From NCBI GenBank assembly GCA_020832285.1, contig JAFIFB010000122.1, positions 1 to 63,353 of the forward strand: DNA of 63,353 nucleotides. The letters are read 5' to 3'. Positions within the stretch are counted from its first letter, which is position 1. Every line of letters starts with the position of its first letter. A program made the position numbers and the translations under genes. Origin of the DNA: Balneolaceae bacterium (GTDB lineage: Bacteria; Bacteroidota; Rhodothermia; Balneolales; Balneolaceae). Shown here in pieces: positions 20,900 through 21,573 of the stretch. The notes beneath the pieces are model-generated. The model was given only the letters and a program-made list of their open reading frames with translations, was not told the origin of the DNA and searched no databases.

Positions 20900-20936
20900 A
20901 AAGCCTCAACAAGGTTGAGGCTCTGTAAACGAAAAA
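20900..20936 (-). terminator. Rho-independent terminator upstream of the TolC operon
   Basis: The perfect 9-bp stem AGCCTCAAC (20902-20910)/GTTGAGGCT (20914-20922) has a 3-nt loop. On the minus strand it is followed by TTTTCTTTT. It would end transcripts from the tRNA-Ser/GIY-YIG region before the TolC gene. Confidence 0.8.
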
Positions 20937-20982: not shown

Positions 20983-21057
20983 GCGGAGGGTGAGGGATTC
21001 TCCCGAAGGGATCCCTTTGGGGGAACCCACCGGAGACCGTGAAGCCTCCATTCTATA
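20983..21057 (-). repeat. tRNA-Ser 3'-fragment copy 1 (distal) with T-loop insertion
   Basis: 75 bp identical to 21386-21460. On the minus strand it reads as the variable arm, T-arm and 3' acceptor strand of the tRNA-Ser at 21487-21573. A 22-nt insertion sits in the T-loop (20997-21022 region) and one T-stem mismatch is present. It lacks the D-arm, anticodon and 5' acceptor, so it cannot be a working tRNA. This copy is followed directly by CCA, which neither the other copy nor the real tRNA gene has. Confidence 0.9.
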
Positions 21058-21105
21058 TCATTATATCTTCAATCAAAGAAAAAAATTTACGTAACTAAAA
21101 CCGCT

Positions 21106-21348
21106 TCATATAATCTTTCTTTGCTTTAAAAACCTGTATCCTTCTATGCTTTTAAAAAAAAGTTCTCGTCTGAAAGCCTCAGATTTCGTTTCAAACTCTT
21201 CATGATAAATCAATTCCCAAGGTCTGCCCCCCTTCGTACTACGGACTTTCCCGGAATTATGATCTTTCAGACGTTCCTCAAGATTCCCAGAATGCCCATA
21301 ATAGTGCCGATGAGTTGATTGACTGCGTAGGATGTAAACAAAATACAA
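21106..21348 (-). CDS. GIY-YIG nuclease family protein (COG2827-like)
   Basis: This 80-residue single-domain protein has VYI at 4-6 and YYG at 16-18, the GIY and YIG positions. Arg26 and His30 follow (NLEERLKDHNSG), and Glu62 lies in the metal-binding helix (RRELFFKS). All key GIY-YIG catalytic positions are therefore present. The family includes small stand-alone DNA endonucleases related to homing enzymes and to the UvrC N-terminus. The gene lies between two identical 75-bp fragments of tRNA-Ser and starts 37 bp after one of them. It has no extra DNA-binding domain. A role in mobility of the tRNA-derived unit is inference. Confidence 0.9.
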   Translation of the reverse strand: MYFVYILRSQSTHRHYYGHSGNLEERLKDHNSGKVRSTKGGRPWELIYHEEFETKSEAFRRELFFKSIEGYRFLKQRKII

Positions 21349-21385
21349 AACAATACAACAGTTTATTTTTCAAAATATCAAAGTA

Positions 21386-21460
21386 GCGGAGGGTGAGGGA
21401 TTCTCCCGAAGGGATCCCTTTGGGGGAACCCACCGGAGACCGTGAAGCCTCCATTCTATA
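21386..21460 (-). repeat. tRNA-Ser 3'-fragment copy 2 (proximal) with T-loop insertion
   Basis: 75 bp identical to copy 1. It lies 26 bp beyond the 3' end of the intact tRNA-Ser and 37 bp ahead of the GIY-YIG start. The 22-nt insertion TCCCGAAGGGATCCCTTTGG plus GG is nearly its own reverse complement and splits TTC from GAAT in the T-loop. Confidence 0.9.
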
Positions 21461-21486
21461 ATTTGTTTCATAATAAATATAATAAG

Positions 21487-21573
21487 CGGAGGGTGAGGGA
21501 TTCGAACCCCCGGAGACCGTGAAGCCTCAACGGTTTTCAAGACCGCCGCATTCGACCACTCTGCCAACCCTCC
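21487..21573 (-). tRNA. tRNA-Ser(UGA)
   Basis: 87 nt. The acceptor stem is GGAGGGT/ACCCTCC with discriminator G. The D-arm is GCAGAGTGGTCGAATGC, and the anticodon stem GCGGT/ACCGT carries the loop CTTGAAA, so the anticodon is TGA. The long class II variable arm TGAGGCTTCACGGTCTC is typical of Ser, and the T-loop is TTCGAAT. CCA is not encoded. Confidence 0.97.

Follow-up and report, generated by a model that had tools for sequence, protein, structure and literature searches.

A putative integrase-free GIY-YIG nuclease element in tRNA genes of Balneolaceae and other bacteria

Why would a bacterial tRNA gene be followed by two copies of part of itself, with a small nuclease gene between them? 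The question is raised by a locus in the window, i.e. the whole 63,353-nt stretch of a Balneolaceae contig that we analysed, for which an initial annotation had proposed a tiny element, mobile or selfish, with a tRNA gene as its target site. Our analysis supports that proposal, with mobility and cleavage themselves remaining inferences. We consider it probable that the locus holds a minimal mobile element of the homing type, without an integrase and resident in tRNA genes, for which a tRNA-family-specific nuclease, cleavage, recombination and mobility are all inferred.

Table 1. Features of the tRNA-Ser locus (window positions) and, in the last row, nuclease genes at RNase P RNA in other genomes
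Feature	Position	Strand	Basis
Intact tRNA-Ser(UGA), target gene	21486..21573	-	ARAGORN; Rfam tRNA
Putative insertion point between tRNA nt 71 and 70, T-loop GGGTTC^GAATCCC	21503..21504	-	Boundary analysis
Element 1, 100 bp, internally deleted, without nuclease gene	21404..21503	-	End comparison with element 2
tRNA fragment copy 2 (nt 46-70, hairpin, nt 71-88)	21386..21460	-	Sequence comparison
22-nt double hairpin, end of element 1	21404..21425	-	Sequence analysis
Element 2, 403 bp, complete, with GIY-YIG gene	21001..21403	-	Sequence comparison
GIY-YIG nuclease gene, 80 aa, TTG start	21106..21348	-	Pfam PF01541
tRNA fragment copy 1	20983..21057	-	Sequence comparison
22-nt double hairpin, end of element 2	21001..21022	-	Sequence analysis
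Old tRNA terminator region	20900..20925	-	By-eye comparison with empty genus sites
GIY-YIG genes between inverted arms resembling an extended P3 stem	L162:809-1112; L151:745-1048; L168:803-1106 (locus coordinates)

The tRNA-Ser(UGA) gene is the sole tRNA gene in the window. On the minus strand the order of tRNA-Ser, copy 2, GIY-YIG gene and copy 1 is as first described, and the two copies on either side of the nuclease gene are indeed identical over 75 bp. Their description as 3' fragments holds in that they match tRNA-Ser nt 46-88, but they are not plain fragments, as nt 46-70 and nt 71-88 are split by a 22-nt double hairpin, CCCCAAAGGGATCCCTTCGGGA. If insertion took place at the 70/71 point, the inserted DNA would span 21001-21503 and consist of two stacked units with common ends (first 19 and last 57 nt shared), each with tRNA nt 71-88 at its start and tRNA nt 46-70 plus the double hairpin at its end, and with fragment copy 2 straddling their junction. 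The insertion point falls in the T-loop, the region in which cleavage had been suspected and in which it is still only inferred. We accordingly read nt 71-88 of the intact tRNA (21486-21503) as element-borne and the same nucleotides of copy 1 (20983-21000) as the displaced original 3' end. Joining nt 1-70 to 20983-21000 gives exactly the intact tRNA-Ser, and the identical 88-mer was returned once inserts were removed by script; as the rejoining follows from the repeat, it is a consistency check and not independent proof. By eye, the DNA beyond 20983 resembles the terminator region behind the tRNA at empty sites, and the old terminator region now lies about 560 bp from the intact tRNA-Ser. As far as comparison of sequences can establish it, the anatomy is that of one exact point in the tRNA, a restoring tRNA half at one end of the element and a hairpin with the displaced half at the other. 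The initial annotation had not recognised the hairpin inserts or the two stacked elements, one of them deleted, nor that the family extends to other tRNAs, tmRNA and RNase P RNA. The RNA folding energies of the fragments were not unusual (z about -1.1 and -1.2), so we make no claim of structure at the RNA level.

The sole gene of the full element encodes a single-domain GIY-YIG nuclease, which matches Pfam PF01541 with E=2.2e-15 (57.2 bits, against a cut-off of 22.6). It meets the criterion for the superfamily, a two-part GIY/YIG motif plus conserved Tyr, Tyr, Gly, Arg, His and Glu, and in agreement with the earlier observation that the family residues are kept, Y5, Y16, G18, R26 and H30 are invariant in 30 relatives and E62 is present in at least 90% of them. 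An AlphaFold2 model (mean pLDDT 97.9) had UPF0213 (PDB 1ZG2, E 0.0013) and Slx1, then I-TevI, as its nearest folds, none of which reaches E=0.001, and the sequence-profile matches were to the same three, UPF0213, Slx1 and I-TevI. The window protein belongs to no NCBIfam family above its cut-off; the group I intron endonuclease family TIGR01453 was weakly matched by 17 of 30 members. The median dN/dS was 0.13 and the maximum 0.32 (47 usable of 536 pairs, the others being saturated), values that would fit a selected protein. A phage origin was considered and rejected: one scan of viral_contigs with the window-type alignment A2 returned no relative, and the phage and plasmid matches are few and distant (below 60% identity), amounting to four plasmid records and, by tblastn of the window protein, seven phage records (Listeria 4, Staphylococcus 2, one other), none of them a T-even phage.

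With atpG as an anchor the locus was recovered in 25 of the 28 genus genomes. The nuclease is present at the atpG/tRNA-Ser site in six of these (the window's own genome G000, G003, G010, G018, G021 and G027), and an intact tRNA-Ser without the nuclease in 15 (G001, G002, G004, G005, G007, G012, G013, G014, G016, G019, G020, G022, G023, G024 and G026); in these empty genomes an efflux-protein gene, recognised by eye only, lies downstream of the tRNA. G015 carries a hairpin-bearing tRNA copy and an apparent nuclease remnant followed by the contig end, the loci of G009 and G017 are cut by contig ends, and G011 was left out of the occupied and empty counts. The criterion for a homing element, a gene at its target site with alleles with and without the element in existence, is met. 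The initial annotation had named vertical descent at a single fixed place as a refutation of the mobile-unit idea, and with 15 of 25 sites empty and the family at many tRNAs this does not describe the nuclease.

Occupied sites come in two layouts. The window and G027 have the intact tRNA, the gene, the displaced 3' half with its hairpin and the old terminator, in that order, with the nuclease stop codon falling within the displaced tRNA half in G027. G027 is the genome of Rhodohalobacter sulfatireducens or one nearly identical to it, as judged from a 700-mer of L012 that recurs in L213, which makes Rhodohalobacter (Balneolaceae) the probable genus of the window. G003, G010 and G021 have the displaced 5' half with hairpins, the gene and then the intact tRNA; G018 belongs with these, but is cut before the intact tRNA. 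The old terminator comes after the intact tRNA in G003 and was not seen there in the stretch examined for G010 and G021; G010 has a further interrupted tRNA copy at the position after the intact tRNA.

The association with tRNA genes is not confined to this site. In the window's own genome the window protein (E up to 0.001) found five places, all of them downstream of a same-strand tRNA (Ser, Asp, Met, Met and Pro) with a piece of the respective tRNA nearby, and because this holds for five of five we judge from the sequences that the association is not chance, even if the Pro case is weak (a decayed gene about 720 bp away and a 19-nt piece scoring 33, against 30 for shuffled tRNA). Matches at E up to 1e-6 occurred in 26 of the 28 genus genomes, with up to seven per genome. 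In 52 of the resulting 68 genus loci (67 non-duplicate loci plus the decayed one of the own genome) a tRNA gene lies within 1 kb on the same strand, and in none is there an opposite-strand one. When 14 of the other 16 were compared with the tRNA set, without a shuffled null, seven contained a tRNA piece with a local score of 48 or more (L011, L025, L027, L032, L052, L058 and L069), L048 a weak one (35) and six none (30 or less). At the level of the phylum, 188 of 296 genomes had a nuclease match at E up to 1e-8, with at most 19 candidates scored per genome. Wider loci were taken from the top of the match list with tandem arrays first, which makes this a biased sample, and 67 of the 83 (67 of 82 distinct ones, as L133 repeats L094) have a same-strand tRNA within 1 kb; among the remaining 16, one lies at tmRNA and three at RNase P RNA, L094, L098, L128, L133 and L171 hold tRNA pieces, L140 holds a weak piece, and six hold none. 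Both samples together contain 194 nuclease domains of 50 aa or more, with the nearest tRNA within 500 nt for 138, on the gene's strand in all 138, preceding the gene in 110 (median distance 66 nt) and following it in 28.

The loci without a same-strand tRNA within 1 kb, 16 of 68 in the genus and 16 of 83 in the wider sample, count against our preferred explanation. About half of these 32, to 20 of which Rfam was applied, are accounted for by tRNA pieces, tmRNA or RNase P RNA. Seven others (L017, L049, L050, L110, L119, L120 and L158) form a GIY-YIG clade adjoining the RNase P group in the nuclease tree; no RNA gene was found beside these seven, which may represent a stand-alone ancestor type. 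At L058, L094 (the same as L133) and L025, the last situated at a contig end, a tRNA-Asp 3' half (about nt 29-75) lies before the nuclease with no matching 5' half. L140 has a hairpin-bearing tRNA-3'-like piece after the nuclease (about 1095-1165, oriented) and no tRNA gene was found nearby; the piece may mark a lost or moved tRNA.

At L139 the target is tmRNA, with the nuclease next and then the displaced 3' end of the tmRNA, its T-loop interrupted by a hairpin. L162, L151 and L168, from three genomes that belong to a different genus of the same bacterial family, have the gene flanked by 24-nt arms with 92-100% complementarity. An RNase P RNA matched by Rfam follows directly, and an apparent P1 strand, recognised by eye, lies upstream. 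From this arrangement the gene appears to occupy the P3 loop of the RNase P RNA (Table 1), which is interrupted and not rebuilt.

To see how nucleases and targets correspond we built a tree of 187 nuclease domains (181 different) over 73 columns, from which six loci were left out (five apparent repeats of genus or phylum loci and L207, which has a broken domain), some other repeated copies of the same DNA stayed in, and 90 of 178 inner branches were unresolved. For the 170 rows with a tRNA label the tree requires 28 changes of label. In 200 shuffles this number averaged 98.8 and never fell below 92; near-copies contribute to the low observed count. Judged from this tree, the nuclease clades are sorted by tRNA, not by host. 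A search with alignment A2 gave 65 named loci, 64 of them with a detectable domain, and 47 of the 64 have a same-strand tRNA-Ser within 600 nt (24 UGA, 10 CGA, 10 GGA and 3 GCU by anticodon; Bacteroidota 30, Ignavibacteriota 10, Balneolota 5 and Calditrichota 2 by phylum); only another tRNA was present in seven, and none in ten, six of which lie at contig ends. The nearest tree neighbour of the window protein by path is L202 from Ignavibacteriota; the most similar sequence, at 72% identity, comes from a Cytophagales contig. Together with the presence of tRNA-Ser beside such nucleases in four phyla, this suggests horizontal transfer with a conserved target.

The initial annotation had made its idea depend on fragments and nuclease occurring together in other genomes, and they do so: 186 interrupted tRNA copies were found in 123 of the 171 loci with a same-strand tRNA. 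The only requirement of the script was that a tRNA copy be interrupted by 8-60 nt; L207 and L219 were not counted, and the copies are not independent, some loci covering the same DNA. Stems of six or more pairs are present in 144 of the 186 inserts, against 15.4% of 3720 random windows, and stems of five or more in 156, against 37.6%. By rough assignment, the interruption points lie in the anticodon arm (81), the T arm (59), the D arm (35) and the variable arm (4). Two kinds of insert can be distinguished. The 22-nt double hairpins occur mostly in tRNA-Ser, and also in Glu, Cys and Pro, without loss of tRNA bases, and clean insertions of any length into tRNA-Ser(UGA) fall at 36|37 (21), 70|71 (6) and 21|22 (5), among others; these counts exclude the copies of the window itself, for which the alignment gave 64|71. 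The single hairpins, mostly of 15-18 nt, replace 3-17 nt (mostly 8-13) of Asp, Gly, Met, Asn, Val and some Pro tRNAs.

The hairpin stems in displaced tRNA pieces change in step. Among 39 distinct 22-mers, 288 of 312 stem cells are Watson-Crick, whereas 1000 column shuffles, which ignore relatedness, gave a mean of 216 and at most 232. All eight pairs are formed in 23 of the 39. The alternative of a single long palindrome was rejected, with 63% Watson-Crick pairs against 92% for the double hairpin and no perfect 22-nt palindrome in any of the 39. Loops of the type R-N-A, closed by C-G, are found in 35 of 39 first hairpins and, on the other strand, in 29 of 39 second hairpins. Because this loop symmetry holds for both strands, it suggests, without proving, that the hairpins function as DNA and not as RNA. 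According to the portion of PMC4686876 available to us, GNA loops with G-C pairs form very stable DNA mini-hairpins. Template switching that perfects hairpins could also yield paired changes without selection.

Could the pieces simply have arisen by ordinary tandem duplication and decay of a tRNA gene beside a resident housekeeping nuclease? They are direct repeats of the neighbouring tRNA, as such an origin would have it, but the empty sites, the many tRNAs used per genome, clades that track the tRNA over four phyla, the same-strand rule, the exact boundaries and the paired changes in the hairpins already contradict this explanation, to which we give next to no credence.

Hairpins of the same build also occur elsewhere in the own genome. 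We found 47 double hairpins with up to two mismatches, two of them in the window, and none for a control pattern (places include G000:C68:45791, C10:2439 and C43:77831); several of those outside the window are copies of other dispersed repeats, and no GIY-YIG gene was found at the 16 loci examined there. Single hairpins of the form TCCCGA-n-TCGGGA are present at 33 places, against two for the control (including G000:C8:25275 and C43:21608); the first 15 loci examined include a pseudo-tRNA-Asp (C17), one place inside the genome's own RNase P RNA (L085) and several within a dispersed repeat with cccgcatttctcaccaagaaattt. Hairpins alone were thus rejected as proof of an element, like hairpins being present in other repeats with no nuclease nearby.

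Complete units can be repeated in tandem. Single-contig genomes contain five-unit arrays at 315 bp (tRNA-Asp, domains 100% identical) and 450 bp (tRNA-Leu, 97-100%) and three-unit arrays at 306, 316 and 323 bp (96-100%). In L038 a gene-free unit of 101 bp is repeated, which can be compared with element 1 of the window. These arrays bear on the idea that the nuclease is cargo or a remnant of an integrase-carrying tRNA island that lost its integrase. A restored tRNA with a displaced half is the hallmark of such islands, at least in the sections of PMC4383910 that were accessible, and as read from the sequence the criterion, restored tRNA and displaced fragment as the element ends, is met at our locus. 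However, the arrays are made of short units (0.3-0.45 kb), displaced halves can be 5' as well as 3', the boundary carries a hairpin and the nuclease clade tracks the tRNA; furthermore, as the initial annotation had stated, we found no integrase in the 403-bp element or by Pfam among the seven neighbouring proteins, one of them without a family, an analysis limited to the window. We regard an island remnant as very improbable. For the simpler version, plain 3' fragments left by an integrase, the hairpin inserts, the displacement of both halves and the failure to find an integrase led to its rejection.

A different possibility is that the host benefits, i.e. that the nuclease and the hairpin-bearing tRNA pieces form a device for defence or control of competence that acts on tRNA or foreign DNA and is selected in the host. 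The low dN/dS is compatible with this, the small GIY-YIG single-strand nucleases of the Ssn family affect DNA uptake in Neisseria, and one relative, L004, matches PDC-S14 and UzuA of PADLOC weakly and over part of their length (E 3e-4 to 2e-3). SegB of phages, as far as the accessible text of PMC13096335 goes, amplifies tRNA genes against defence systems. Set against this, neither the window protein nor L038 had a PADLOC match, the extra tRNA copies add no tRNA dose because they are interrupted, and the patchy presence, the identical tandem arrays and the gene-less or decayed copies look selfish. We therefore think a beneficial device unlikely.

For the integrase-free homing-type element, the mechanism that we favour is a homing-like copying into a cut tRNA loop with the displaced half disabled by the hairpin. 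Each nuclease would be specific for one tRNA family, tRNA-Ser in the case of the window, and would cut the tRNA gene, or its single strands or hairpins, in a loop; recombination with an element-bearing copy would then put the element in, and the hairpin may protect the displaced half against cutting, against use as a tRNA and against loss by recombination. Homing-like copying is favoured because a SegB motif crosses the T-loop insertion point: RAWTSGAAC, reported for 23 of 83 sites in the part of PMC13096335 that we could consult, matches nt 67-75 of the window tRNA-Ser on the bottom strand. The same motif is found in 68 of the 130 tRNAs of our set.

How the intact tRNA escapes its own nuclease remains unexplained. 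The intact tRNA of the occupied G027 is identical to that of the empty G024, and those of G021 and G010 are identical to that of the empty G001, G002 and G004, so that self-protection by a resistant tRNA was not seen and a tRNA-specific double-strand cutter should cut its own host. Either the duplex is spared, or the nuclease is tightly controlled, or the gene is protected in some other way. The unchanged tRNA is best accounted for, without direct support, if the enzyme reads single strands or hairpins. Such a structure-guided element, which overlaps with our preferred explanation, would have a nuclease acting on single-stranded hairpins, with tRNA arms on the lagging strand or in incoming DNA as substrates and the terminal hairpin as the recognition end, and would be a GIY-YIG counterpart of hairpin-reading transposases. 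The interruption points lie in hairpin arms, the tmRNA T-loop and an apparent RNase P P3 loop, an unchanged intact tRNA at occupied sites is expected if the duplex is spared, and the fold is nearest to UPF0213 and the branched-DNA nuclease Slx1. The R-N-A loops of the 22-nt inserts are of the type that includes the very stable DNA mini-hairpins of PMC4686876, a paper available to us in part. However, the single-hairpin families replace tRNA bases and thus do not show clean insertion, and there is no assay and no evidence of hairpin binding or cutting. We view single-strand recognition as conceivable and tentative.

Taken together, comparative anatomy indicates that this is a real and widespread family of tRNA-restoring nuclease elements, the movement of which is inferred. 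Searches of the open-licence PMC literature brought up no title or opening of an abstract on such elements, which is not proof of absence. A bolder proposal, which is plausible and still somewhat less likely to be right than wrong, is that of a new class of mobile DNA in Bacteroidota, Balneolota, Ignavibacteriota and Calditrichota: an 80-aa GIY-YIG protein would read the hairpin loops of RNA genes (tRNA, tmRNA and RNase P RNA), insert the element, rebuild the gene and seal the junction with a DNA double hairpin selected for its shape and not its sequence, and shorter hairpin-only copies would move in trans.

We believe that, if the element reading is true, these would be among the smallest autonomous mobile elements known to us and would show that an integrase-free, site-specific element can inhabit essential RNA genes. 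The nucleases at different tRNAs (Ser, Asp, Gly, Met, Asn, Val, Pro, Leu and others) provide a natural series that makes target-switching by GIY-YIG nucleases directly testable, and the elements account for a class of tRNA fragments in these genomes.

Several known systems share parts of this anatomy. REP sequences and their RAYTs likewise combine short palindromes with one nuclease-like gene, but RAYTs are HUH-type enzymes and there is no tRNA restoration. UPF0213 (PDB 1ZG2, 1YWL) and Slx1 match the nuclease best, by sequence profile and by fold. Genes for UPF0213 proteins ordinarily stand alone and in single copy, whereas the nucleases described here are multi-copy and tied to RNA genes. The Ssn nucleases of Neisseria are linked to dispersed palindromes and cleave single strands specifically at repeats that flank the gene; we do not know of tRNA targeting by them. 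To our knowledge, no nuclease is linked to the double-hairpin elements of mitochondria, which resemble our inserts as small double hairpins within genes; ours differ in lying at fixed tRNA-arm positions beside a GIY-YIG gene. These mitochondrial double-hairpin or repetitive hairpin elements occupy tolerated places in genes, as described in the available part of PMC2800124. In tRNA and tmRNA islands of the Islander type, which use tyrosine integrases, the split target is also restored by the element and a displaced piece left at the other end, as far as the consulted portion of PMC4383910 describes them, whereas in the elements described here, with units of 0.1-0.45 kb, no integrase was found, a hairpin marks the boundary and either half can be displaced. 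SegB is a free-standing GIY-YIG homing endonuclease of T-even phages that is enriched beside tRNAs, cuts in tRNA genes and promotes tandem amplification of the tRNA-segB segment; it resides in a phage rather than a chromosome, and the accessible text of the study (PMC13096335) describes neither a restored tRNA with a displaced half nor a hairpin for it. With a GIY-YIG gene beside tRNA genes in both cases and the SegB motif matching the T-loop of the window tRNA-Ser, our observations suggest that phage SegB has a chromosomal counterpart.
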